This document shows, piece after piece, positions 9,644 through 37,302 of a stretch of 37,472 nt of DNA. A program made the position numbers and the translations under genes. The DNA lies in IMG/VR virus record IMGVR_UViG_3300035670_000651, positions 1-37,472 of that record, one strand, 5' to 3'. The stretch comes from a virus. Numbering within the stretch: the first letter of the stretch is position 1; every line of letters starts with the position of its first letter. Below the pieces are notes generated by a model. It worked only from the letters and a program-made list of their open reading frames with translations, searched no databases and had not been told where the DNA came from.

Positions 9644-10563
9644 AAGAATTGATTTCAACAAAAGAATTGAATGCACGTATTGGTTGGACTTTAGAACAAA
9701 AGATTGATCATGCTTTGTATATTATTGATGCTTTTAATGCAAAGCATCCAAAAAGCACAATTTCATTTAGTGGTGGTTTGGATTCAACTGTAATGTTACA
9801 TTTAATTCGTATAGTTGATAAAAACAAAAAAGGAATATTTGTGAATACAACTAATGAACATTCTGAAATAGTTAAATTTGTCAAAGAACAAGATAATGTT
9901 GATATTATTATGCCAAAAATAACTTTTACTAAAATAGTAGAACAGCATGGATTTCCATTGATAAGTAAAAAAGTTGCAGGAATGATTGAAGCATACAGAG
10001 ATCCTTTAAGGATTAATGAAGCATCCAAAAGATTATTTTTAACAGGAAAAACAAAAGATGGGCATAATTCAAGAACATTTATTATCCCTGAAAAATGGCT
10101 TTATTTACTGAAAGCTCCTTTTGATGTTACAGCAAAATGTTGTTATTACTTAAAGAAAAAACCATTGAGGCCATATAAAAAAGATGGAACTTTTGTAGGG
10201 ACTAAAGCAACAGATAGCAGACTTAGAATGATTAGTTATCAAAAAATTGGTTGTATAAATGAAAAAATAAATGTTTGCACACCACTTTCAATATGGACAA
10301 GGGAAGATGTGGTAAAATTCATAAAGCAGAATAATATACCGTACTCAAGTATTTATGATAATGGGGAAGTTTCTACTGGTTGTGCTTATTGTGGATTTGG
10401 TATGCAATTTGATATAACAAGATTCAGAAGATTAAAAGAAAGAGAGCCTAAAAGATATGAAATAATGATGAATATTAAAAACAATGGTATTCCTTATAAA
10501 GATGCTATACAAATGGTTTTCAAACGTACCTGTCATTTACAACCAACATTCTTTGATATATGA
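9640..10563 (+). CDS. PAPS-reductase-family protein (PP-loop, adenine nucleotide alpha hydrolase fold)
   Basis: 307 residues. PP-loop SGGLDS at 44-49 binds ATP/PAPS-like nucleotides. Cysteines C167-C168 (AKCCYYLKKKP) and C248/C251 (GCAYCGFG) could hold an iron-sulfur cluster, and GTKATDSRLR matches the conserved G-x-R/K-A-x-E/D-S region. Such genes are frequent in phages, often next to replication genes, and are related to CysH and to DndC of DNA phosphorothioation; no dnd partners are visible here. The substrate cannot be read from sequence. It sits between loader and helicase with 4-nt overlaps on both sides, so it is expressed with them. Confidence 0.8.
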   Translation: MKELISTKELNARIGWTLEQKIDHALYIIDAFNAKHPKSTISFSGGLDSTVMLHLIRIVDKNKKGIFVNTTNEHSEIVKFVKEQDNVDIIMPKITFTKIVEQHGFPLISKKVAGMIEAYRDPLRINEASKRLFLTGKTKDGHNSRTFIIPEKWLYLLKAPFDVTAKCCYYLKKKPLRPYKKDGTFVGTKATDSRLRMISYQKIGCINEKINVCTPLSIWTREDVVKFIKQNNIPYSSIYDNGEVSTGCAYCGFGMQFDITRFRRLKEREPKRYEIMMNIKNNGIPYKDAIQMVFKRTCHLQPTFFDI

Positions 10564-13340
10564 TTGAAAGGAAAATATTGATAGGGCTAATCACCCAAAC
10601 AGAATATTTACGACAAATAAAATCTGAGTGGAATTCTGATTTTATTGAAAGTGCTACTGCAAAGTTGATAGCAGGGTGGTGCTGGGAATATTTTAATGAG
10701 TTCAGTAAAGCACCTTTAAGGGATATTGAAACAATTTACATAGATAAATTAAAAAAAGGAATTGACAAATCATTAGCCAAAGAAATTGAAGAAGAAATTT
10801 TACCTAACTTATCAGATGAATATGAAAATGGTGAGGTGAATGTTAAGTACCTTATCAAACAAACAAAAAAGTATTTTAAAGAACGGCAAATAACTATTCA
10901 TTCAGAAGTAATAGATCAATTACTTTCAAAACACAAAATTGATGAAGCAGTACAGGTAGCACAGGATTTTAAAATAGTTTCAGAAGTTGAAGATGATGAA
11001 ATTGATTTAAGCAAACCAGAAGTTTTAGCAAAAATAGATAGTGCTTTTGACACAGAATATCAAAATGTAATAAGTTTTCCCGGTGCTTTGGGTGAGTTTT
11101 GGAATGACCAGTTAGTTCGTGGTGCTTTAGTAGGAATACTTGCTCCAGAAAAGAGGGGGAAGTGCCTACCGGGAAGCCAGAAAATTCTTATGTCAACAGG
11201 AGAGGAATTAACAATAGATAGAATAATTAAATTTGGCAGAAGGGATATTATTTCTTTTGATGAAATTAATCAAATTTTTGTTAAAACAAAAATATCTGAT
11301 ATTTATTATAATGGGACGAAAAAAATATATAAAGTTACAACTAAAACAGGAAGGCAAGTTATTACAACTTATAATCATCCATATTTAACTCCTAATGGAT
11401 GGATTGAACTTTCTGATTTGAAGTTAAATGATTTTATAGCTGTTCCTAAAAGAATTGATATTTTTGGTAATTTAGAGTTACCAGAACATTATATAAAATT
11501 AATTGCTTATTTTATTGCTGATGGTTGTACTGGTGAAAAGTTATATGGTAACACAAAATGTAAATATATTGGGTTTACTTGTGAAGATAATGCTATGCGT
11601 AAAGATTTTGTTGAATGTATTGACAAAATGGGGTGTGAAACATCTTGGAATGGAATTGATTGCAGAGTAATAAATTCAAGAGAAAATAGAGGAAAGCACG
11701 ATAAGAATTTTGTTTTGCCTTTTCTAAAAAAGTATAAAATATTTAATAAACTATCTTATCATAAGAGAATACCAGTTTCAATTTTTAAATTGAATAAAGA
11801 GCAACTATCATTATTTTTAAGTATTCTGTTTTCATGTGATGGTTGGATTAATAAAGATGGATCAGAAATTGGGTTTTGTGTTGCTAATGAAATCTTATGC
11901 AGACAAGTCCAATCATTACTTATTAAATTTGGAATTGTTTCTTGTCTCAAATTTAAAAAAAATAATAAAGCAAATGCTTGGAGTTTAACTATACGTGATT
12001 ATGAAAACATAATCCTTTTTATTAAAGAAATAGGGTTTAAGTTTGAAAATGCTGTTAAATGTGAAAAAGCAATAAAAAATAAAAAACCTATTTATAAATC
12101 ATTTCTTGATAAATTTCCTTATAAAATAGCGAAAGATTTTCATGATGAAGTGCAGATCGAAATTAAAAATACGGGTACAATTTTTAAAAAAGCAGGGACA
12201 ATCAGGGAACAAGTTATTAAAAAGAAACCATTAATGAGACAATCTTTTTCTGAAGTTAAAGACACAAAAACAGGAAATAAATATTTCAATTCTGTATTAT
12301 TATGGGATGAAATTACTAAAATTGAATATTTAGGAAAAGAAAAAACGTATGATTTGACTGTTGAAAAACACCATAATTTTATAGCCGAAAATATATTAGT
12401 GCATAATACCTTTATGCTATTAGAATTTATGATGAGGGCATATTTACAAAAACGAAAAGTTGCATTTTTTCAGGCTGGTGACATGACTGAAAAGCAACAG
12501 ATAATGCGAATATGTATTTACCTTGCAAAGCGTTCAAACCTTGAAAAATATTGTGGTGTAAAGTATATTCCAGTGCAGGATTGTGTAAAGAATCAAACTG
12601 ATACCTGTAACAAAAAGATCAGGGAATGTAATTTTGGTATCTTTAATGAAGATGAACTTGAGGTAAGAACCAAAACCACAATGGAAAAATTGATTCAGGC
12701 GTATGAAGACAATCCAGCGTACAAACCATGTTATAATTGTGTTGAGTGGTATAAGAAAAAATTTGGTGCTGTATGGGTTAAAAAAGAAGAAATTAAAGTA
12801 CCTTTGTCTGCAAAGGTGAGCAAAAAACTTGTAGAACGATTTTTTATTAAAACCAAAAGAAGTATTAAAATATCAACTCACGTGAACGGAACATTAACCA
12901 TTTCAAAAATAAATTCAGTATTAAAAAGGTGGAAAACAGAAAATGATTTTGTGCCTGATATAATCCTTATTGATTACGGTGATTTGATTGTACCTGAAAT
13001 ACGTGGTGAATTCAGACATCAACAAAACGACATTTGGAAAAAGTTTCGTGGTCTGTCACAGGAAGGAGATTGTTTGGTGGTAGTGCCTACTCAGGCTGAT
13101 TCTGAAAGCTATACTAAGGACAGGTTAGGGTTAAGTAACTTTAATGAGGATAAACGCAAATATGGGCACGTCACAGCCATGTATGGGCTTAATCAGGACG
13201 TAAGTGGCAGGGAAAAAGAAATTGGCATAATGCGTATTAACAAAATTGTAGTCCGTGAAGGTGATTTTCATGCCACACATGAAGTTAATGTTTTGCAAAG
13301 GTTAGAAATAGGAAGACCATTTTTAGGGTCATTCTTTTAA
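10560..13340 (+). CDS. DnaB-type replicative helicase precursor, intein-interrupted
   Basis: 926-residue precursor; removal of the 415-residue intein gives a 511-residue helicase. The split Walker A is APEKRGK | T, restored by splicing. Walker B is IILIDYGD, and IIV/VVVPTQAD follows as motif 3. Between Walker A and B lies a Cys-rich insert (DCVKNQTDTC, IRECNF, CYNCVEW) that probably binds zinc, as in other phage DnaB proteins. The N-terminal 150 residues are the helical collar-type domain. It would unwind the fork 5'-3' and contact the primase. ATGA overlap with the upstream gene; a tRNA follows at 13346. Confidence 0.9.
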   Translation: MIERKILIGLITQTEYLRQIKSEWNSDFIESATAKLIAGWCWEYFNEFSKAPLRDIETIYIDKLKKGIDKSLAKEIEEEILPNLSDEYENGEVNVKYLIKQTKKYFKERQITIHSEVIDQLLSKHKIDEAVQVAQDFKIVSEVEDDEIDLSKPEVLAKIDSAFDTEYQNVISFPGALGEFWNDQLVRGALVGILAPEKRGKCLPGSQKILMSTGEELTIDRIIKFGRRDIISFDEINQIFVKTKISDIYYNGTKKIYKVTTKTGRQVITTYNHPYLTPNGWIELSDLKLNDFIAVPKRIDIFGNLELPEHYIKLIAYFIADGCTGEKLYGNTKCKYIGFTCEDNAMRKDFVECIDKMGCETSWNGIDCRVINSRENRGKHDKNFVLPFLKKYKIFNKLSYHKRIPVSIFKLNKEQLSLFLSILFSCDGWINKDGSEIGFCVANEILCRQVQSLLIKFGIVSCLKFKKNNKANAWSLTIRDYENIILFIKEIGFKFENAVKCEKAIKNKKPIYKSFLDKFPYKIAKDFHDEVQIEIKNTGTIFKKAGTIREQVIKKKPLMRQSFSEVKDTKTGNKYFNSVLLWDEITKIEYLGKEKTYDLTVEKHHNFIAENILVHNTFMLLEFMMRAYLQKRKVAFFQAGDMTEKQQIMRICIYLAKRSNLEKYCGVKYIPVQDCVKNQTDTCNKKIRECNFGIFNEDELEVRTKTTMEKLIQAYEDNPAYKPCYNCVEWYKKKFGAVWVKKEEIKVPLSAKVSKKLVERFFIKTKRSIKISTHVNGTLTISKINSVLKRWKTENDFVPDIILIDYGDLIVPEIRGEFRHQQNDIWKKFRGLSQEGDCLVVVPTQADSESYTKDRLGLSNFNEDKRKYGHVTAMYGLNQDVSGREKEIGIMRINKIVVREGDFHATHEVNVLQRLEIGRPFLGSFF
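11163..12407 (+). mobile_element. Intein with LAGLIDADG endonuclease in the DnaB P-loop
   Basis: Residues 202-616 of the precursor (415 aa). Block A starts CLPGSQKI with Cys1; block B TTYNHPYLTPNGW has the conserved His; the endonuclease has paired LAGLIDADG motifs LIAYFIADGC and LSILFSCDGW; blocks F/G read YDLTVEKHHNFIAENI and end VHN, followed by Thr as +1 residue. Insertion is between Lys and Thr of the GKT P-loop, so unspliced protein cannot bind ATP. All splicing residues are present, so it should be active. Confidence 0.93.
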
Positions 13341-13345
13341 AAATA

Positions 13346-13419
13346 GGGTAAGTAGCTCAGTTGGTTAGAGCATCAGACCGATATTCTGAAGGTCGTAGGT
13401 TCGATGCCTACCTTACCCA
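13346..13419 (+). tRNA. tRNA-Ile (anticodon GAT), with C at position 33
   Basis: 74-nt cloverleaf: acceptor GGGTAAG/CTTACCC, D-arm GCTC-AGTTGGTTA-GAGC, anticodon stem TCAGA/TCTGA with loop CCGATAT, 5-nt variable region, T-arm GTAGG-TTCGATG-CCTAC, and A as discriminator. Anticodon GAT (13380-13382) reads AUU/AUC. The base before the anticodon is C rather than the near-universal U33. CCA is not encoded. It lies 5 nt after the DnaB stop codon, probably co-transcribed and processed. AUU/AUC codons are frequent in this AT-rich genome. Confidence 0.92.
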
Positions 13420-13420
13420 C

Positions 13421-13627: not shown

Positions 13628-14656
13628 ATGGCAAAAAGTTTAACGAAAAAGGAACTTGTCAGTGCTTATAAAGAACTGGACAAGGAAATTGGGATTGAGC
13701 CCCCGATTGAGTATGATGAACTTTCTCTTGAAGAATTTGAGAAAGAACTCTATGACACAGTTACTGAACTTGTTGAGGAAGGTGACACATTCACAAAAGC
13801 TACTCAGGCTGTTTTTGATGCTTTAAATGCAAAGTATGGTGATGAAACTGAAGAAGAAGAAACTGAAGATGATGAACAGGAAGAAAATGAGGAAGATGAT
13901 GAAGAAGAAACTGAAGATGAGGATGATGAGGAAGAAGTAGAAGACGATGAGGATGAGGACGATGAGGAAGAAGATTTGACAGCTTTAGTAAAAAGCACAC
14001 CTAAAAGAGATGCTCTTTTAGCTTTGTTAAAAGAAAGGGATGAATTTAAAAAGGTTCGTAAAGCCCTTGCAAACGAAAAGAATGTATTTACTCTTAAAAA
14101 GCAAATGCTTAAAGCACTTGAAGGTGTAACACCTGTTGCTGAAGAAAAACCTGTTCAGAAAGGTAAAGTCACTGAAAAAGAAAAACCTGCAAAAAAGACA
14201 AAGGAAATTGTTGAAGAACCGGAAGAAGAAACCAATCCACTTATTGATGAAATCAATGAATTTGAAGATCGTGATGATTTACTTCTTTTTGTGAAGGAAA
14301 ATAAAGAATCTTTTAAAGGGATTGTAACAAAGGATTTTCCAACATTTAAAAAATTGAAAGTGGCTTTGCTTGAACATCTCGGTGTAAAAACAAAGATTAA
14401 AGGAACACATATTGTAAAAAATCCTTGTACTCTTCCACGTAATGTTGGTGTAATTGCTACCATCAAGAAAATTCTTGAGGATGCCGGTAAAGAAGGAGTG
14501 TCACGACAGGATATTCTTAAAAAATTGGCTAAGAAATTCCCTGATCGCCCGACAGAAGGCATGATTAAAACTGTTACTGCACAAGTTCCGGGACAGCTTA
14601 CTGTTCATGGTTTTGCCGTTATAAAGAACAAAGCTGGTTTATACGTAAAAAAGTAA
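13628..14656 (+). CDS. Acidic-linker protein with a C-terminal winged-helix-like domain
   Basis: 342 residues. N-terminal helices (1-75) lead into about 40 almost purely Asp/Glu residues (roughly 76-115), then Lys-rich helical segments, and a C-terminal 80-residue region (VGVIATIKKILEDAGKEG ... QDILKKLAKKFP) that looks like a winged helix. Two short repeated-looking modules, DLTALVKSTPKRDALLALL and EINEFEDRDDLLLFVKENK, may be related. It is flanked by the candidate RNA and a terminator, and just precedes the sliding clamp. Function unknown; a DNA-mimic or chromatin-like role is speculation. The acidic tract makes the opposite strand look like false Ser- or His-rich ORFs. Confidence 0.78.
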   Translation: MAKSLTKKELVSAYKELDKEIGIEPPIEYDELSLEEFEKELYDTVTELVEEGDTFTKATQAVFDALNAKYGDETEEEETEDDEQEENEEDDEEETEDEDDEEEVEDDEDEDDEEEDLTALVKSTPKRDALLALLKERDEFKKVRKALANEKNVFTLKKQMLKALEGVTPVAEEKPVQKGKVTEKEKPAKKTKEIVEEPEEETNPLIDEINEFEDRDDLLLFVKENKESFKGIVTKDFPTFKKLKVALLEHLGVKTKIKGTHIVKNPCTLPRNVGVIATIKKILEDAGKEGVSRQDILKKLAKKFPDRPTEGMIKTVTAQVPGQLTVHGFAVIKNKAGLYVKK

Positions 14657-14708: not shown

Positions 14709-15719
14709 ATGAAAATAAATAAAAGTGAATTAAAAAAGGCTTTAGAAACAGTAAAGCCGGGATTAGCAAACCGTGAATCATTTGATCAGGCAACTTCATT
14801 TGCTTTTACAAATGGTTGTGTGGTTACTTACAATGATGAAATTTCAATATCACACCCTATCAGTATTGATATTGAAGGAGCTGTACAAGCAGAAGAATTG
14901 TACAAATTTATTGCTAAAGCAAGTACTGATGAAATTGAAATTGAAACTACTGATGATTCGATTACATTAAAGAGTGGCAGGGCAAAGGCTGGTTTCTTAC
15001 TTGCAAAGGAAATAAAATTACCACTGGAAGATGAAATTCTTAAAAAAGGTAAATGGACAGATTTGCCTGAAACATTCATTGTTTACTTACAATTTGCATC
15101 AATGAGTTGTTCGGTGAATTTAACTGATCCAAAACTAACTTGTGTTCATGTAAATAAAAAAGGATTCATTGAAAGTAGTGACAATCACAGAATTTTTCAT
15201 TATGATTTTGAAAAACCATTTGGTTTTAAAACATTCTTGATTCCACAATCTTCGGTGAGGGTAATTACAAAATTAAACCCTGTTAAAATAACTGATGGTA
15301 AAGGATGGGTTCATTTTAAAAATTCTGAAGGCACTGTAATTTCATGCAGGACTTTTAATGAAGAATATGTTGATACATCACCATTTTTAAAATTAGCTAA
15401 AGGTGGGACAAAACTAACATTTCCTGAAACATTAAGTGAAATTCTTGATAGGGCTATAATTTTTACTGAAGAAGAAAAAGTAATCAACAGTAGTGTTGAT
15501 ATTGAAATTCAGAATAAGAAACTTGTAGTCAAAAGCAAATCTGAAACTGCATGGTTTGAGGAAAGTGCAAGAATTAAATACGAAGGTGAAACATTGACTT
15601 TCACTATTGTGAATTACTTGTTAAAGGATATTCTTTCTTTAACAAATGGGGGCAGTATATTTGAAAAGATTTTGTTTTTTAAAGGAGAGAATTGGGTGTA
15701 CATAACATCTTTGAGATAA
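14709..15719 (+). CDS. DNA polymerase sliding clamp (DnaN-like)
   Basis: 336 residues from ATG 14709 (a TTG two codons upstream is less likely). The start KINKSELKKALETVKPGL and the pattern of three similar beta-alpha modules (FAFTNGCVVTYNDEISI; SDNHRIFHYDF; EEKVINSSVDIEI) match the bacterial beta clamp, though it is diverged and slightly shorter than the usual 365-375 aa. It would encircle DNA as a dimer and tether the PolA encoded two genes downstream, loaded by the ATPase at 20876. The stop shares one base with the next ATG (TAATG). Confidence 0.82.
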   Translation: MKINKSELKKALETVKPGLANRESFDQATSFAFTNGCVVTYNDEISISHPISIDIEGAVQAEELYKFIAKASTDEIEIETTDDSITLKSGRAKAGFLLAKEIKLPLEDEILKKGKWTDLPETFIVYLQFASMSCSVNLTDPKLTCVHVNKKGFIESSDNHRIFHYDFEKPFGFKTFLIPQSSVRVITKLNPVKITDGKGWVHFKNSEGTVISCRTFNEEYVDTSPFLKLAKGGTKLTFPETLSEILDRAIIFTEEEKVINSSVDIEIQNKKLVVKSKSETAWFEESARIKYEGETLTFTIVNYLLKDILSLTNGGSIFEKILFFKGENWVYITSLR

Positions 15720-16954
15720 TGTCCGGATTCTTTACAAGACAAGAAACTAAGTCCGCAGAACGTCCTGATGGTAAATTACAGACTTGCTATTCATGCGGTT
15801 TGTATAATAAGTGTGATTCACCAAAAATGAAACCTTTTGGTAATTTTAAAAAAGGCATTATGAATATTGGTGAAGCCCCCGGATTGGCTGAGGATAGGGT
15901 TGGAAAGCCGTTTCAAGGGCGTACAGGGCAATTACTTGAGCGTACCTATGCAAAGTTAGACATTGACTTATTTGAGGACTGTATTAATTTAAACGCTGTG
16001 AATTGCTGCCCTACTGACAAAGGTGGCAAAAACAGACCACCTACCAACATTGAATTGGATTGTTGCAGAAGAATTGTTTTGAATTACATAAATCAGTACA
16101 AACCAAAAATAATTGTTCTTTTAGGTAAATCAGCACTTTATTCAATAATTGGTAATCGTTGGAAAGGTGGATTGAACAGTATGACGGAATGGCGTGGGTG
16201 GACTATACCTGATCAAGATTTTGAATGTTGGGTTTGTCCTGCATTTCATCCGAGTTACGTTGAACGAATAGTTGATGATCAACCAGTTGTAAAACTTGTT
16301 TGGGAGCAGGATTTAAGGAATATTTTTAACAAATTAAAAGAACCTTTTGTAAAATATGTAAAACCTGAAATCACATTTTTAGAAGATTTAAAAGTGTTGA
16401 ATGGAATTAAAAACGGGGATACCATAAGTTTTGATTATGAAACAACAGGTTTAAAACCACACGCAGATACTCATAGAATTGTTTGTTGTTCGGTAGCAAT
16501 AAATGAAGATCAGGTGTATGTATTTGAAATGCCAAATAAAATTGAAAAAGCAAAACCTTTTATTGATGTATTAAAAAATGCAAAAATAAAGAAAATGGCC
16601 CACCACCTAAAATTTGAAGATAATTGGAGTTGGGAAATATTAGGTGCAAGAGTACGTGGTTGGAGTTGGGATTCAATGTTGGCTGCTCATATTCTTGATA
16701 ATCGTGCTGGTATCACAGGATTGAAATTTCAAACCTATGTTAATTTTGGCATTGTAAGTTATGATGAAGCTGTAAAACCTTATTTACAAGCGGATGATAA
16801 AAATGCAAATAGTATGAATACAGTTTTGGAATTGGTTAAAAAACCAAAAGGGAAAATTCAATTAATGGAATACTGTGCAATGGATTCAATTTTTGAGTTT
16901 AGGCTCGCCATGAAACAAATGAAAGAATTTGAACTGCAAACTTTACCTTTTTGA
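15719..16954 (+). CDS. Family 4 uracil-DNA glycosylase fused to a DnaQ/PolA-type 3'-5' exonuclease
   Basis: 411 residues from ATG 15719; the upstream TTG would overlap the clamp gene. N-terminal half is an Fe-S uracil-DNA glycosylase: C23, C26, about C96 and C115 are the expected cluster ligands, motif A is GEAPGLAEDRVGKPF (51-65), motif B HPSY (177-180). From about 230 follows an exonuclease: Exo I D239-x-E241 (FDYETTG), Exo II KMAHHLKFEDN, Exo III YCAMD. The following gene encodes a family A polymerase lacking its own exonuclease, so this protein likely supplies proofreading and uracil surveillance to it. All catalytic motifs are intact. Confidence 0.92.
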   Translation: MSGFFTRQETKSAERPDGKLQTCYSCGLYNKCDSPKMKPFGNFKKGIMNIGEAPGLAEDRVGKPFQGRTGQLLERTYAKLDIDLFEDCINLNAVNCCPTDKGGKNRPPTNIELDCCRRIVLNYINQYKPKIIVLLGKSALYSIIGNRWKGGLNSMTEWRGWTIPDQDFECWVCPAFHPSYVERIVDDQPVVKLVWEQDLRNIFNKLKEPFVKYVKPEITFLEDLKVLNGIKNGDTISFDYETTGLKPHADTHRIVCCSVAINEDQVYVFEMPNKIEKAKPFIDVLKNAKIKKMAHHLKFEDNWSWEILGARVRGWSWDSMLAAHILDNRAGITGLKFQTYVNFGIVSYDEAVKPYLQADDKNANSMNTVLELVKKPKGKIQLMEYCAMDSIFEFRLAMKQMKEFELQTLPF

Positions 16955-16956
16955 CT

Positions 16957-19461
16957 ATGGCAGATATATTAGACGCATATAAATTATTTCATGAAGGTGC
17001 TCAGGTTCTTTCAAGGATGGAACAAGCTGGTTTACGGATTGATCTTGATTACATTGCTGATAAAAAGAAATGGATTAATCAGGAAATTATAAATGTTGAA
17101 AATCAATTTTTATCAAGCAAATTAGGTAGGGAATGGAGAAAATCTTCAAAAACAAAAATTAATATTTATAGTGGTGATCAGTTAGGTTATTTCCTTTATA
17201 CGGTAAAAGGTATTAAACCACCAAAGTTTACCAAAACTGAAAAGGGTAGTACAGATGAAGAAGCATTACAGCAATTAGAATTACCTGATTTACACCATTT
17301 ATTACGAATTAAGAAACTTAAAAAGATAAAAGATTATCTTGATATTTTTGAAAGGGAAACTGTTGATGGATATATTCATCCATTTTATCATTTGCATTTG
17401 GTAACTACTTATCGTTCATCAAGTTCAAATCCTAATTGGCAGAATATACCTAAAAGAGATAAAGAGGCTATGGATATAATTCGTAAAGCAATTTATCCAC
17501 GTCCCGGACATCAATTAGTAGAAATTGATTTCAAACAATTAGAAGTGCGTATAGCCGCAACATATTGTGAAGATCAAAAACTTATACATGATGTTCTTGA
17601 AGGTGATATGCACAGGGATATGGCTTGTGAAATATTCAAAATTAAAAATTATAATCCTGAAGATAAAACACATAAAGTTTTAAGGAATGCTGCAAAAAAT
17701 GGTTTTGTATTTCCTGAATTTTACGGTGATTTTTATAAAAATTGTGCTGTAAACCTTGCTTATAATTGGGGACAATTATCCAAAATAAATAACTGGAAAA
17801 AAGGACAAGGTATTGAATTTGAAAAAGGGTATTTATCAGACCATTTAATTGCAAATGGATTTAAAAACCTGTGGCAATTTACAGAACATCTTAAAGATAT
17901 TGAATATATGTTCTGGAATAGAAGGTACAAGACATACACTAAATGGAAAGAATCATGGTGGCAGGAATATCAGCGCAGTGGTTATTTTGAATCTAAAACA
18001 GGATTTGTTTACAGAGGTGTAATGAATAGAAAAGAAGCTATTAATTACCCAATTCAGGGATGCTTGCAAGGTAAAAGCAAAATTTTAACTAATAAAGGAT
18101 TAATTCCAATTAAGGATTTATATGGGAAATCTACTCTTGTATGGACTGGGTTTAAGTGGGCTGAAGCAGTGGGAATGCAAATGGGTAAGTGTCAATTAGC
18201 TAAAATTGAACTATCATCAGGTTTGACTATTAATTGTGATACAAGACACAAATTAAAAAATGAACTGAATGAATGGATTGATTTTAAGGATTTAAAAATT
18301 GGTTCTTACGTTGCTTTACCTAAAATTGATAAGATTATTCCCGCATCTGTAAATATGAACTGGCATTTCATTTATGGTTTTCTTATAGGTGATGGGTATC
18401 TATTTCATAGGGAAGCTATTAGTAAAACAACAAATGATAGAAAAGGAATATCAATAACTGTTGGAAAAGTAAAAAAGGATATTTTAATATCTATTAGGGA
18501 ATTTTTCAAAAATAAAGGATATAAAGTTAATTATCACATATCAAGATTTCCAGAAAGCAATAGAGCTAATAAATACACAATACTTATAGAAAAAAAGAAA
18601 TTAGTAAACTATTTAGAAAATATAGGTTTTATTTTTGGTAAAAATGCTCACACAAAAAGAATACCAGAATCAATATGGGCTTCTACTGAACAAGAAAAAC
18701 GTGATTTTCTTGAAGGTTTATGGTTATCTGATGGTTCCCGTGGAAAATGGAGTAAAAGAGATTTACACATGTGTAACGAACCATTATTAAAAGAAGTTCA
18801 AATTTTAGCATCAAGTCTTGGTTTTGATTCTTGTTTACGAAAAACATCTTGTGGATTTAAACTATCTTTTTATTGGAAAGAGTTTAATAGAAAACCAAAT
18901 AGAAAAGTTCCAAGAACTACCATTGATTTAGCTACTAAAAATACACAGTTTATATGGAATTTACAAAATAATGAGGAAATAACAGAAAAAAGATGTTTTA
19001 ATTCAGGAAAAGCAATTTCACAATATGTAGGGGAAAGGATTATAAACAAATTTAATCCAAATTTTGAAATTTATAGGTATGATACAATTAAGAATATCAC
19101 AATTTTAGATAAAGAAGCAAAAACTTACACAATGGCCGTTAATGAACCTTTACATCAATTTGTTGCTGATGGAGTTATTACAAAAAATTCTGCATTTCAT
19201 TGTTTGTTGTGGAGTTTGATTGAAGGTATGAAAGCACAAAAAGCTGAACATTGGGATTCAAAAATAGTTGGGCAAATACATGATGCAATTATAATTGATG
19301 CAAATCCTCAAGAAATAGAACATATTGTCAATGTTATGAAATGTATAATGTGCCACGATTTACAGGTTACGTGGAAATGGATCAATATTCCTTTAGATAT
19401 TGATATTGAAATCTGTGATATAGATAAAAGTTGGGCTGAAAAGAAAAGTTATGTTGCATAA
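16957..19461 (+). CDS. Family A DNA polymerase core, intein-interrupted
   Basis: 834-residue precursor from ATG 16957; mature protein about 458 residues, polymerase domain only. Motif A is VEIDFKQLEVR (Asp191, Arg198); motif B is RNAAKNGFVFPEFYGD, one residue longer between Lys and YG than in Taq, a variant known in phages; motif C is VGQIHDAIIID. The junction NYPIQG|SAFH is restored by splicing. No 5' nuclease and no 3'-5' exonuclease domain are present; the latter is in the preceding gene. Start ATG 16957 avoids the TTG inside the UDG stop. Its end overlaps the methyltransferase start by 11 nt. Confidence 0.93.
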   Translation: MADILDAYKLFHEGAQVLSRMEQAGLRIDLDYIADKKKWINQEIINVENQFLSSKLGREWRKSSKTKINIYSGDQLGYFLYTVKGIKPPKFTKTEKGSTDEEALQQLELPDLHHLLRIKKLKKIKDYLDIFERETVDGYIHPFYHLHLVTTYRSSSSNPNWQNIPKRDKEAMDIIRKAIYPRPGHQLVEIDFKQLEVRIAATYCEDQKLIHDVLEGDMHRDMACEIFKIKNYNPEDKTHKVLRNAAKNGFVFPEFYGDFYKNCAVNLAYNWGQLSKINNWKKGQGIEFEKGYLSDHLIANGFKNLWQFTEHLKDIEYMFWNRRYKTYTKWKESWWQEYQRSGYFESKTGFVYRGVMNRKEAINYPIQGCLQGKSKILTNKGLIPIKDLYGKSTLVWTGFKWAEAVGMQMGKCQLAKIELSSGLTINCDTRHKLKNELNEWIDFKDLKIGSYVALPKIDKIIPASVNMNWHFIYGFLIGDGYLFHREAISKTTNDRKGISITVGKVKKDILISIREFFKNKGYKVNYHISRFPESNRANKYTILIEKKKLVNYLENIGFIFGKNAHTKRIPESIWASTEQEKRDFLEGLWLSDGSRGKWSKRDLHMCNEPLLKEVQILASSLGFDSCLRKTSCGFKLSFYWKEFNRKPNRKVPRTTIDLATKNTQFIWNLQNNEEITEKRCFNSGKAISQYVGERIINKFNPNFEIYRYDTIKNITILDKEAKTYTMAVNEPLHQFVADGVITKNSAFHCLLWSLIEGMKAQKAEHWDSKIVGQIHDAIIIDANPQEIEHIVNVMKCIMCHDLQVTWKWINIPLDIDIEICDIDKSWAEKKSYVA
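18061..19188 (+). mobile_element. Intein with LAGLIDADG endonuclease in PolA, Lys-Asn C-terminus
   Basis: 376 residues inserted after NYPIQG and before Ser. Block A CLQGKSKI (Cys1), block B GLTINCDTRHKL (Thr-x-x-His type), endonuclease motifs FIYGFLIGDGY and FLEGLWLSDGS, block F TYTMAVNEPLHQFVADG and the end ITKN. The usual penultimate His is Lys here, while the terminal Asn and the +1 Ser are kept. It sits close to the O-helix side of the polymerase active site. Confidence 0.92.
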
Positions 19462-20486: not shown

Positions 20487-20879
20487 ATGAACGAAGAATT
20501 AAAAAGTGGATGGTGTTCTGAATTTGGAATGCCACCAGAAGAAGTAATGTTTAACGAATTAAAAAGCAAATTAATTCGTGCACTGACAGAAAATGCAAAG
20601 AATTCAACAATCCTACCTACTGTGTTTGGTTTGTCAGAAGTAGATGCTGACAAAATCACTCAAAGTGTTAAAAAAGTATTTATTGAACTTTGTGACAATC
20701 CTGATAATAGCACCAAAACAAAAGATTTGACCAAAGTATTTGAAAATGTATCTACTATTAATGAGCTTGTTTATGCAACAATGCTGTACAGTTCAGTATT
20801 GGAACGTTTTGCAAAGGATGATAAAGATACAAGCAAAGATTTGTTGAATTTATTACTTCTAACAAAACTGTTAAAATGA
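20487..20879 (+). CDS. Hypothetical protein preceding the clamp loader
   Basis: 130 residues, all-helical by appearance, with a leucine-rich end (DLLNLLLLTKLLK). ATGA overlap with the clamp-loader gene suggests coupled expression and possibly a partner subunit (phage T4 uses a small second loader subunit, gp62), but no sequence motif supports that. Function unknown. Confidence 0.72.
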   Translation: MNEELKSGWCSEFGMPPEEVMFNELKSKLIRALTENAKNSTILPTVFGLSEVDADKITQSVKKVFIELCDNPDNSTKTKDLTKVFENVSTINELVYATMLYSSVLERFAKDDKDTSKDLLNLLLLTKLLK

Positions 20880-21787
20880 GTTTGTATCTAAAACACAGAC
20901 CAAAAAACCTATCTGAAATAGTTGGTAATAAAGAGATTACCTCTACCTTGAAAGGAATGTTAAAAGACAAAGAAACATTCCCACACACTTTTTTATTCTA
21001 CGGTGAAACGGGTTGCGGGAAGACCACTTTTGCCAGAATAATAGCCAAAGAATTAGGCTGTGCCGAAACAAACATTGTTGAAGTTGACACAGCCCAATTC
21101 AGAGGAATTGACACAGTACGTGAATTGCGTAAAAATGCTATGTTTACACCTTTGGGTGGTGGCATCAAAGTTTATATTCTTGATGAAATTCACAAAGCAA
21201 CAGGTGATGCTCAAAATGCTTTGTTAAAGATTCTTGAAGATACACCAAACCATGTGTATTTTATTCTTTGTACCACTGACCCACAAAGTTTGTTGCCTAC
21301 AATTAAAGGGCGTTGTTCACAATTTCAGGTTCAATTACTGGACGATGATGAAATGTTAAGTTTACTAACTAACATTACTACATTGGAAAATGATAAATTA
21401 GAATCTGAAATTTATGATCAAATTATTTTAGACAGTCAAGGGCATCCACGAAACGCTTTACAGATTCTTGAACAGGTCTTAAAAACACCACCTAAGCGAA
21501 GATTAGTCATAGCTAAACAAACAGCCGTTCAACAAAGTGAAAGCATAGCTTTATGCAGGGCTTTGATTAAAGGTGAAAGCTGGACTAAAGTGAAAGATAT
21601 TTTACAGGGATTAAAAGGGCAAGACCCGGAAGGAATTCGCAGGGCAGTTTTAGGGTATGCTACAAGTGTTCTTCTGAATAAGGATGATGAACGTGCAGGG
21701 TTGATTTTGGAAGAATTTATGGAACCTACCTATAATGCAGGTTTTCCAATGATTGTGTATGCTTCATATTCTGTGACAAAAAATTAA
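20876..21787 (+). CDS. Clamp-loader ATPase (DnaX/RFC-small-subunit-like)
   Basis: 303 residues. Walker A GETGCGKT (43-50), Walker B VYILDEIHK with DEIH at 103-106, sensor I region CTTD, the GRCSQF motif that supplies the arginine finger (SRC-like), and sensor II GHPRNAL. This is the AAA+ core plus a C-terminal collar domain of DnaX/RfcS. It would open and load the sliding clamp encoded at 14709. The start SLYLKHRPKNLSEIVGN is typical of the family. Only one loader gene is evident. Confidence 0.92.
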   Translation: MSLYLKHRPKNLSEIVGNKEITSTLKGMLKDKETFPHTFLFYGETGCGKTTFARIIAKELGCAETNIVEVDTAQFRGIDTVRELRKNAMFTPLGGGIKVYILDEIHKATGDAQNALLKILEDTPNHVYFILCTTDPQSLLPTIKGRCSQFQVQLLDDDEMLSLLTNITTLENDKLESEIYDQIILDSQGHPRNALQILEQVLKTPPKRRLVIAKQTAVQQSESIALCRALIKGESWTKVKDILQGLKGQDPEGIRRAVLGYATSVLLNKDDERAGLILEEFMEPTYNAGFPMIVYASYSVTKN

Positions 21788-22735: not shown

Positions 22736-23824
22736 ATGAAAAAAAGTAAAGGAAGTTCCTTTAGGGGAAAAACAAGAAGAAATGCTGAAAATTCACGCAA
22801 AAGAGGTGGATTAAACTACTTAAAATTGCCTGATGGTGTTGATTTATTCACACCTGACATGGACAGTAAAGTTGATATGGATATTATGCCATATACTGTA
22901 TCTGACAAACATCACCCTGACAGGGATACTGAAAGTGAAATAGCTATTGAAGGTACATTGTGGTATAAAAGACCATTTACAATACACCGTAATATAGGTG
23001 CAAAGAATGATCAGGTTGTGTGCCCTGCCACAATAGGTAAAAAATGTCCTATTTGTGAATACAGGGATAAACTGCGTAAGGAAGATGGTGATGAAGAAAC
23101 AATACGCAGTCTGGCTCAGAGTGATAAAGTTATGTATGCTGTAATCATTAAGAATAATAAAAGAATTGATGATCAAAAAGTCCATTTGTTTGTTTTTTCA
23201 GATTACTTATTCCAAAAAAGATTTGAAGAACAATTAAAAGATGATGAAAAATTTGAAATATTTCCTGATCATCAGGAAGGCTATACTTTAAGAGTACGCT
23301 TTGCAGAAAATAATATTGGCACTAACAAATTTGCTGATCCAACAAGATTTGATTTTGTAGATCGTAAAGAACAGTATGATGATAGTATTCTTGAAGAAGT
23401 GCCTGACCTTGATAATTTGCTTGTTATTTTGGATTACAAAGACTTGAAAGCAAAGTTCCTTGAAGGTATTTCTGACGAAGATGTGGAAGATGATGATGTT
23501 GAGGAAGAAGAAGATGAAAAACCTGCTAAAAGAACACAAAGATCAAAACCACAATCAAAGCGTAAAATAGAAGAAGATGATGAGGAGGAAGATGAGGAAG
23601 AAGAAGATGATGAGGAGGAAGATGAGGAAGAAGAAGATGAAAAACCTGCTCGTCAAAGAAAAAGAAAAGCCATAAACAATCCTGAACCTAAAGGTAAATC
23701 TAAAAAGCCACTTGAATGTCCTGAAGGGCATAAATTTGGTAAGGATGCCGATAAGTTTGATGATTGTGAGGATTGTGCTGTTTGGAATGAATGTTATGCT
23801 GAAAAGAAAAAATCTAAGAAGTAA
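22736..23824 (+). CDS. gp32-like single-stranded DNA-binding protein
   Basis: 362 residues. The zinc site H84-x11-C96-x7-C104-x2-C107 (FTIHRN ... CPATIGKKCPICEY) matches the His-Cys3 finger within the OB fold of T4 gp32. A basic N-terminus (MKKSKGSSFRGKTRRNAE) fits the cooperativity arm. Residues near 255-305 form an acidic, repetitive linker like the acidic tail that recruits partners. An additional C-terminal Cys cluster (CPEGHKFG, CEDCAVWNEC) is seen in some phage versions. It would coat ssDNA and interact with RecA, polymerase and helicase. Its stop overlaps the next start (TAATG). Confidence 0.87.
   Translation: MKKSKGSSFRGKTRRNAENSRKRGGLNYLKLPDGVDLFTPDMDSKVDMDIMPYTVSDKHHPDRDTESEIAIEGTLWYKRPFTIHRNIGAKNDQVVCPATIGKKCPICEYRDKLRKEDGDEETIRSLAQSDKVMYAVIIKNNKRIDDQKVHLFVFSDYLFQKRFEEQLKDDEKFEIFPDHQEGYTLRVRFAENNIGTNKFADPTRFDFVDRKEQYDDSILEEVPDLDNLLVILDYKDLKAKFLEGISDEDVEDDDVEEEEDEKPAKRTQRSKPQSKRKIEEDDEEEDEEEEDDEEEDEEEEDEKPARQRKRKAINNPEPKGKSKKPLECPEGHKFGKDADKFDDCEDCAVWNECYAEKKKSKK
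23571..23640 (+). repeat. 30-bp tandem repeat in the SSB acidic linker
   Basis: Positions 23571-23600 and 23601-23630 are identical, with 10 more matching bases to 23640 (2.3 copies). The repeat encodes Glu/Asp runs. Its length is a multiple of three, so slippage changes only linker length. Confidence 0.9.
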
Positions 23825-35584: not shown

Positions 35585-35612
35585 TTACACTTGCTCAAGG
35601 TGTAATTTCTTT
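35585..35612 (+). terminator. Weak hairpin, possible + strand terminator
   Basis: TTACACTT (35585-35592) pairs with AAGGTGTAA (35597-35605) with one G-T pair, followed by TTTCTTT. It lies just beyond the stop codon of the - strand gene and could terminate + strand transcription. Short stem, so tentative. Confidence 0.35.
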
Positions 35613-37302
35613 ATAACCAACCTGCTGGTATAGCTGAATCATTACTATAAGGATCACCACTATTGTAATTAAAACAATCAGTATAAGATGAACCAACCAT
35701 ATCATAAATTGTAGAATCCCAAAGTTCAGGAGCATACCTTGTATTATCACCACCCCCATAAGTATTAAGATAAAAAGCATATCTGAAATCCATTGTTTTC
35801 CCGGTAAATCTTCTATAAGCAGCATCTTCATCTGTGTCTCCGGAATCATCAGGATCGGGTGCACTAAATACGTATCTTTCTAATTTCATACTATAACACA
35901 CCTCAAATGTTCTAAAGAAACTGGTTACTTTTAAATTGTTTCTAAATAACCCATTTGGTGCTTTTGTTATTCCTAATCTCCACCTGAAACAATACGCATA
36001 AGTCGTAACTTCTGTCTGGTACATAAATAAATCAGGATCAAGATCACCTGTTAAATACCATGATGCTGAACCAGCCTGATAGAATGTATAAGACATATTT
36101 GTGACTGACGTATTTGTTTCTGTACTATTCCAGAATAACTTTCTTGGAATTCCACCATCAATCGGAACCTTAGCAAATGTGCCATAAAAACTGCGATTTG
36201 CATCATTGTATTTAAACATATATTCTGACAAAGGAATATTAAGATTTTCACAAAGCCAGAATGTTTGTGCAAATGTGGTGACTTTTGTATTTTGACTGAA
36301 TAAATTATCATTAAAAACTTCATAACCAAGACTGTCATTTCCTGCATACAATCCATAACATCTTGCAAAAGTGGCATCAAACCACAATGCTTCTGTATTG
36401 TTCCAAAATAAATGATCTGGAATACCTGTTATATTTGTACTATCAAAAGTGCTGGTAAAATATTTTGCACTTGTGCCAGCAGCATCAAATAAAGTTTCTG
36501 GAATAGTGCCTTTAAATGGTGTACCGGCAAATGTATATGAAAAGTTTACAGCATCTACATTCTGAGTAAACAATAATGGTATTTCACAGGTATATTTCGT
36601 TGCATAAAATGTAGCATAAAACGTAGTGGCATTCACGTTTGTATCAAAAATATCATCAGGTAATGTTTCACTTGAATTGCCAAGATTTGTATTTCTAAAT
36701 GTTTCTTGAAAATCTAAAACATTAGCCCCGGCATAAGAAAATAATAAAGTTGGGACATTTCCTGTTATACCAGAATAAGAAAATGAATTATTGAATGATG
36801 CTACACTTGGCGTAAGACTAAACCAATCTTCATCCAATGTTGAAGTATAACTTGTACAACCAGACAAGAAATAAATAAATGTGGTTATATTTGAAGCCCC
36901 TGTTATTGCTCCTGTTGGTAAAGCTGTAAGATTAACACAATTATAAAAGTTCAAATATCTGAAATCTGCTACTGTACCCCACTTAATAACTTTTCTGATT
37001 TGTGCTCTGATAGCAACTTGACTATAACAAGAAAATCCCTGACAAACACCTTTAATTTTAATCCAATAAGTACCTGCGTTTGTATATGTGTGAACTCTGT
37101 CAGAATCATTGTAAGTAGTGACTTTACTATTAGCTGTACCATCTCCCCAAATTGCTATAAAATCGTATGAAGCCGTTCTTGTTACACCTCCACCATCAAC
37201 GTAAGTATTTATCAAAGGCAACGTTACTGTTTCAGATGCTGTGACAGTTACAGAAAAAATAAAAGCATCCATGTTGCTTGTTGGATGATACAATATTCTC
37301 AT
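35611..37302 (-). CDS. BspA-like repeat protein with PKD-like domain, candidate tail/receptor-binding protein
   Basis: 563 residues. After about 15 residues comes a PKD-like beta sandwich: FIAIWGDGTANSKV ... HTYTNAGTYWIKI. From about 105 to 530 the protein is a chain of degenerate 22-30-residue repeats of the form [LI]P..LF..N..VTTF..TF..C, the BspA/DUF285-type leucine-rich repeats of surface proteins. No signal peptide. Very rich in Thr, Ser, Asn, Tyr and Phe, poor in Lys, unlike the + strand genes. It is encoded opposite the replication module, 4 nt after another - strand gene that reads like a virion protein, so a tail-fibre or adhesin role is likely. Repeat family is recognisable; receptor binding is inferred. 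Confidence 0.78.
   Translation of the reverse strand: MRILYHPTSNMDAFIFSVTVTASETVTLPLINTYVDGGGVTRTASYDFIAIWGDGTANSKVTTYNDSDRVHTYTNAGTYWIKIKGVCQGFSCYSQVAIRAQIRKVIKWGTVADFRYLNFYNCVNLTALPTGAITGASNITTFIYFLSGCTSYTSTLDEDWFSLTPSVASFNNSFSYSGITGNVPTLLFSYAGANVLDFQETFRNTNLGNSSETLPDDIFDTNVNATTFYATFYATKYTCEIPLLFTQNVDAVNFSYTFAGTPFKGTIPETLFDAAGTSAKYFTSTFDSTNITGIPDHLFWNNTEALWFDATFARCYGLYAGNDSLGYEVFNDNLFSQNTKVTTFAQTFWLCENLNIPLSEYMFKYNDANRSFYGTFAKVPIDGGIPRKLFWNSTETNTSVTNMSYTFYQAGSASWYLTGDLDPDLFMYQTEVTTYAYCFRWRLGITKAPNGLFRNNLKVTSFFRTFEVCYSMKLERYVFSAPDPDDSGDTDEDAAYRRFTGKTMDFRYAFYLNTYGGGDNTRYAPELWDSTIYDMVGSSYTDCFNYNSGDPYSNDSAIPAGWL

Follow-up and report, generated by a model that had tools for sequence, protein, structure and literature searches.

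A conserved two-gene form of a phage UDG-exonuclease-family A DNA polymerase, with a candidate separate editing subunit

The DNA analysed here, called the window in what follows, is IMG/VR virus record IMGVR_UViG_3300035670_000651, a stretch of 37,472 bases that is probably a fragment. On its plus strand, a gene joining an iron-sulfur (Fe-S) uracil-DNA glycosylase (UDG) domain to a 3'-5' exonuclease (exo) is followed after 2 nucleotides (nt) by a separate gene for a family A DNA polymerase (pol) lacking the exonuclease, as an earlier note made from the sequence had described and as Pfam matches and the TGA-CT-ATG junction confirm. Comparison with relatives indicates that the division of this known phage polymerase type into two genes is genuine and conserved, and no published description of the split UDG-exo arrangement was found in the open-access literature. 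The features of the two genes are as follows (lengths in amino acids, aa).

15719..16954, + strand: UDG-exo protein, 411 aa (ATG at 15719, stop TGA at 16952-16954), with matches to Pfam UDG and DNA_pol_A_exo1
15836..16273, + strand: Fe-S family-4 UDG domain (Pfam UDG, E 7e-21; alignment to PDB 1vk2/1l9g; motif survey)
16397..16915, + strand: DEDDy-type 3'-5' exonuclease (PF01612, 1.5e-9; conserved across 104 loci)
16943..16951, + strand: C-terminal Leu-Pro-Phe (LPF), with which the UDG-exo protein ends
16952..16956, + strand: stop TGA and 2-nt gap CT, directly followed by the pol ATG
16957..19461, + strand: family A DNA polymerase core, exo-less, intein-containing precursor (Pfam DNA_pol_A, 3.8e-40; phrog_17, 1e-48)
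18061..19188, + strand: LAGLIDADG intein, 376 aa (LAGLIDADG_3, 2.6e-8; Intein_splicing, 2.3e-6; ends set by alignment to intein-free relatives)

With motifs A and B defined as in PMC10359453, the window UDG domain has an intact motif A (GEAPG), motif B (HPSYVER), the Asn in NLNAV and all four Fe-S cysteines, and the latter align with those of PDB 1vk2, as is expected of family 4. The exonuclease carries motif I (FDYET, D-x-E), motif II (HHLKFED) and motif III (YCAMD, Y-x3-D), motifs I and III with the expected residues. No exonuclease domain was found by Pfam search in the second open reading frame (ORF; ATG at 16957), where polymerase motifs A (EIDFKQLEVR), B (RNAAK...FYG, one residue longer before YG) and C (QIHD, after the intein) are all present. 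The pol frame is -1 relative to the UDG-exo frame, the shift sitting at a run of five T with the 2 nt separating both ORFs, and its open stretch extends upstream only to 16933 (16933-16951, the last 7 UDG-exo codons).

The family phrog_17 (1445 columns) models UDG, exo and pol together. The three domains occur in the window in the same order but as two polypeptides, the first ORF ending at column 829 and the second starting at column 835; the break between the window parts thus falls precisely where exo meets pol in the known single-chain architecture. The joining of UDG to exo, which the earlier note had highlighted, is therefore already represented by single-chain UDG-exo-pol proteins (phrog_17, Herelleviridae); that single-chain arrangement is probably ancestral, and the novelty lies in the split.

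The earlier account of the pol gene was also incomplete, since it overlooked the 376-aa intein, which comprises residues 371-746 as numbered from the TTG at 16951. It is inserted between NYPIQG and SAFHCLLW, a site across which intein-free relatives have uninterrupted sequence. Cys1, two DOD motifs, a C-terminal Asn and a +1 Ser (Lys-Asn followed by Ser) are present, while the penultimate residue is Lys where His would be expected, which lets one predict that splicing is slow. As pol motif C lies downstream of the intein, splicing is needed to join it with motifs A and B, and DNA synthesis would depend on it. Inteins occupy other pol sites in relatives (TYRS/CIAKG in loci L006, L038 and L043; near motif A in L158), some of them with an HNH endonuclease, and in L113 (4648-9312) an intein-like insert also lies within the UDG domain; the split-polymerase family is, by these comparisons, a repeated intein target. 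A second intein among the replisome genes of the window phage lies in its DnaB-like helicase, near EKRGKC...VHNTF (Walker A region).

Viral and genome contigs were scanned for relatives, which gave 104 distinct loci with both UDG-exo and pol parts. In 81 of these UDG-exo occurs together with a separately encoded, exo-less family A polymerase, and the other 23 have a single fused chain, which answers the survey for which the earlier note had called. In the 80 split loci measured, the spacing between the stop of UDG-exo and the start of pol ranges from -23 to 5254 nt (30 nt or less in 26, more than 30 nt in 54), and the larger gaps often hold unrelated small genes. With such varied gaps and intervening genes, a frameshift or a wrong base in the window cannot account for the split, and the missed frame that the earlier note had named as a possible refutation is excluded. 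A group I intron was also considered and rejected, both window parts being complete domains, unlike the situation in Bacillus phage Goe26 (L099:3902-7496). In Goe26 the pol is annotated as two coding sequences (CDS), split inside the pol domain and with another CDS between them, a different kind of split that is likely due to an intron in this Herelleviridae pol.

On a tree built from the exo and pol sequences together with the UDG part, for which Herelleviridae and other annotated phages supplied the root, the fused or split state needs 8 changes, at least 5 of them forced by starred branches. Re-fusion of UDG-exo to pol within the family is likely on this comparison, since the fused locus L071 and the fused group L064-L070 are nested inside split clades. 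A remnant LPF was looked for at the fused junctions and none was found. A search of IMG/VR for close relatives of locus L096 found none. Matches in metagenome-assembled genomes spread over unrelated phyla, so no host is claimed.

The catalytic residues of the two UDG-exo domains have fared differently across the family. All 104 loci retain exo motif I (D-x-E) and 100 retain the motif III Tyr/Asp, and the four Fe-S cysteines are found in every one of the 103 loci with sequence readable throughout. In the UDG, on the other hand, motif A and the motif B His are intact in 54 of the 104 loci and lost in 50, with about 20 changes of state on the tree; neither survives in L015, which at 62% identity is the closest relative of the window. 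From these sequence patterns we conclude that the UDG domain is conserved for a job other than uracil excision, most simply read as DNA binding or an architectural part.

The UDG-exo protein of the window ends in exactly LPF, as do 48/80 split UDG-exo proteins (window included), compared with 7/1394 other ORFs of the same loci that end in [LIVM]PF. The stretch preceding it varies in length and sequence, and the ending is absent from split polymerases (0/79) and clamps (0/90). Three fused relatives have an [LI]PF tip at the polymerase end (EEDIPF, VDDLPF and ADDLPF), and in four loci without a tip on UDG-exo or pol it is found on a single-stranded DNA-binding (SSB)-like protein (L057, L074) or on the clamp loader (L141, L152). 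The carriers are thus UDG-exo in 48 loci, fused pol in 3, the SSB-like protein in 2 and the clamp loader in 2, and no locus has two. The strictly C-terminal position suggests, by analogy with the bacterial SSB tip DDDIPF, that the carboxylate is recognised; the window tail FELQTLPF weighs against this, as no acidic run precedes its LPF, acidic residues (DDLPF/DDIPF) being found on some relatives' polymerases, SSBs and loaders. As the phage clamp is DnaN-like, LPF may possibly be a hydrophobic clamp-binding peptide. At the other end of the protein, a peptide M-x-G-F-F-[TS]-x-K-E-T precedes the first Fe-S cysteine in the window (15719-15745) and in relatives; it could possibly be a second docking peptide, and its AlphaFold2 confidence is lower in the model of the fused relative L070.

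That model, built on 92 alignment rows, mostly unpaired split ones, has a mean predicted local distance difference test (pLDDT) of 94 and a predicted template modelling score (pTM) of 0.92. In Foldseek, exo and pol together give an alignment of about 690 columns with Klenow/Bst polymerase (target-normalised TM about 0.80-0.84), and a Klenow-like packing of the two is accordingly predicted. The clamp homologue of locus L025 was modelled with the bacterial beta clamp fold (AlphaFold2, structure match). An artificial clamp-UDG-exo read-through construct of the same locus, in which the stop was read as Gly, reached a pTM of 0.87, which is weak model evidence for a clamp/UDG-exo interface.

Taken together, these observations are likely to reflect a two-subunit phage replicase derived from a single-chain UDG-exo-PolA. 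The polymerase subunit would synthesise DNA after splicing of its intein, and the UDG-exo subunit, bound to it in trans with Klenow-like packing, would proofread. The UDG fold with its Fe-S cluster would act as a DNA-contacting head of the exonuclease, mainly gripping or architectural, and where its motifs are intact, as in the window, it would probably also excise or sense uracil. The LPF tail would hold the editing subunit at the fork by docking on a hub shared within the replisome, which would be the phage clamp or else a receptor for SSB tips. Of the trans-acting editing subunit suggested in the earlier note, the separate gene, conserved in a large phage clade, and the retained catalytic residues of the exonuclease are borne out, whereas trans assembly is what we infer from them. 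More tentatively, and with somewhat less than even confidence, the family may represent a class of replicase in which a separate subunit, based on an Fe-S glycosylase fold that is often dead, supplies proofreading, and in which a portable LPF tag, on one carrier per phage and moving among exonuclease, polymerase, clamp loader and SSB, would plug that subunit into a single replisome hub and mimic the bacterial SSB tip.

Several points weigh against the two-subunit replicase. The evidence for it consists entirely of sequence comparison and predicted structures. Exo motif II has Glu (KFE) in the window where Klenow has Asp424, and Glu (KFE/KYE in most) in nearly all of the family, the outgroup phages having Asp (KFD); consequently the earlier statement that the active sites look intact in all three domains stands for the UDG motifs, exo motifs I and III and pol motifs A, B and C but not for exo motif II. 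In the L025 read-through model the last three residues have a pLDDT of 63, so docking of the tip on the clamp is not supported there. The LPF tip is missing in 32/80 split UDG-exo proteins and is therefore not essential for the split arrangement, and the one-carrier exclusivity has a Fisher p of 0.04 that comes from four cases and ignores kinship of the loci. Both trees came from quick searches and have long branches flagged at the outgroup; no close cultured relatives were found (best matches under ~37% identity).

The same data bear on four other explanations. Uracil-coupled editing, in which an active UDG glycosylase or sensor detects template uracil and triggers exonucleolytic back-up, is compatible with the intact GEAPG, NAV, HPS..R and four cysteines of the window protein, and by count an intact UDG is found in 49/80 split against 4/19 fused loci, as if activity were preferentially kept in the free subunit. 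This association is not significant in a test on independent pairs, however, and the motif losses in 50 loci, among them the window's sister L015, argue against an obligatory coupling, which makes this explanation unlikely. The coupling of uracil detection to proofreading proposed in the earlier note lacks support as a general mechanism, the Fe-S cysteines being what is invariant. It is less probable still that UDG-exo has left the replicase and become a separate DNA-repair or DNA-degrading nuclease. Its encoding apart from pol, kilobases away in some loci, and its variable UDG state would fit such a role, but an exo-less PolA partner is present in every split locus compared, usually near a clamp, and re-fusion of UDG-exo to pol, in the ancestral order, appears to have happened more than once.

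The -1 frame of pol at the window junction allows two further explanations. Programmed -1 frameshifting at CCTTTTTGA could yield some fused UDG-exo-pol besides free UDG-exo, the pol frame being open over the last 7 UDG-exo codons; a heptamer slippery site or a stimulator is not established, frames and gaps differ among relatives and most have intervening DNA, and we regard this as very improbable. The five-T run and the 2-nt gap could likewise raise the suspicion of an error in sequencing or assembly, or of a mutational frameshift, in a gene that is otherwise fused, but this is refuted for the family by the 80 distinct split loci and sits badly with the LPF found just before the stop in most UDG-exo relatives as in the window, so that for the window itself it hardly deserves credit. 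The two-subunit replicase remains the reading we prefer.

The two genes lie within a replication module, whose other members with coordinates of interest are the following.

10560..13340, + strand: DnaB-like helicase with intein (phrog_19, 1.7e-21; Intein_splicing, 1.1e-22; LAGLIDADG_3, 1.5e-13)
14709..15719, + strand: DnaN-like sliding clamp (phrog_947, 6.6e-33), its stop overlapping the UDG-exo ATG by one base (TAATG)
20876..21787, + strand: clamp loader ATPase (phrog_5846, 3.9e-66)
22736..23824, + strand: SSB-like protein, without a PF tip in the window phage (homologous to P0002/P0003; weak phrog_15004 match, 7e-4)

The module comprises a primase, a DnaC-like loader, DnaB (with intein), the clamp, UDG-exo, pol (with intein), a DNA methyltransferase, the clamp loader and the SSB-like protein, together with a RecA/UvsX-like recombinase and a Holliday-junction resolvase. 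The order clamp, UDG-exo, pol is conserved, and 79 loci have a clamp no more than 1.5 kb upstream of UDG-exo. Neither thymidylate synthase nor dUTPase was seen among the ORFs scanned in the window, itself probably incomplete. Between the helicase and the clamp are a tRNA-Ile (GAT) at 13346-13420 and then, at 13628-14656, a protein of 342 aa that contains a long acidic stretch of Glu/Asp and has no family match. The sole large minus-strand gene (35611-37302) encodes a 563-aa protein matching phrog_9915, of unknown function.

A widespread phage clade with a detachable and sometimes re-fused editing subunit offers natural paired cases on why exo and pol are joined. With UDG motifs that changed about 20 times beside unchanging Fe-S cysteines, it becomes directly testable what such clusters contribute to polymerase structure, and the LPF tail is a short, testable handle on the assembly of this replisome.

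Family A polymerases are textbook single-chain proofreaders. In bacterial Pol III alpha/epsilon (DnaE/DnaQ), a C-family polymerase is paired with a DEDDh exonuclease that has no UDG; the likeness to the window lies in a proofreading exonuclease that is a separate subunit and in the adjoining DnaN-like clamp. Of what would make UDG-exo DnaQ-like, the separate gene is found and the binding of polymerase and clamp is seen in predicted models only. The closest known systems are the SPO1-type (Herelleviridae) and related UDG-exo-PolA polymerases (phrog_17; PDB 9qhs; Lysinibacillus phage LysYB1; Pseudomonas phage Almagne), which have the same families in the same order (UDG, DEDDy exo, family A pol) but in one chain, whereas the window family has two genes, often with others between, the LPF tip and, in exo motif II, Glu. 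The match to PDB 9qhs ('Putative DNA-directed DNA polymerase I') covers UDG and exo, and the 1142 aa of that protein would suffice for a single chain. In Caudoviricetes ctLwi270 (MW202554) UDG-exo and pol are also separate, about 150 nt apart and with both CDS annotated 'DNA polymerase'; it is very distant from the window family and without the LPF tip, and its split is probably independent.

Other replicases share single traits with this one. Group-1 jumbo phage polymerases also lack a fused exonuclease, and a standalone exonuclease in the complex has been proposed for them as here, although their polymerase is a different, divergent one and the exo is encoded elsewhere in the genome (PMC7824862). 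A phage clade with a family A polymerase in two ORFs is likewise known from OM43 phages MEP401/402, where the split falls inside the pol domain, the exo stays with the N-terminal pol part and an intron is suspected (PMC10580990). Vaccinia D4 is a UDG that serves as processivity factor, and PMC10253040 cites De Silva and Moss 2003 for its glycosylase-independent replication role; it is a precedent for a UDG fold with a non-catalytic role in a replicase, differing in being a family 1 UDG that acts with a family B polymerase and has no exonuclease fusion. Finally, the C-terminal tip DDDIPF of bacterial SSB (PMC5872125) resembles the window tail in its terminal Pro-Phe with a free carboxylate on a replication protein, the acidic run being the part that the window tail does not share.

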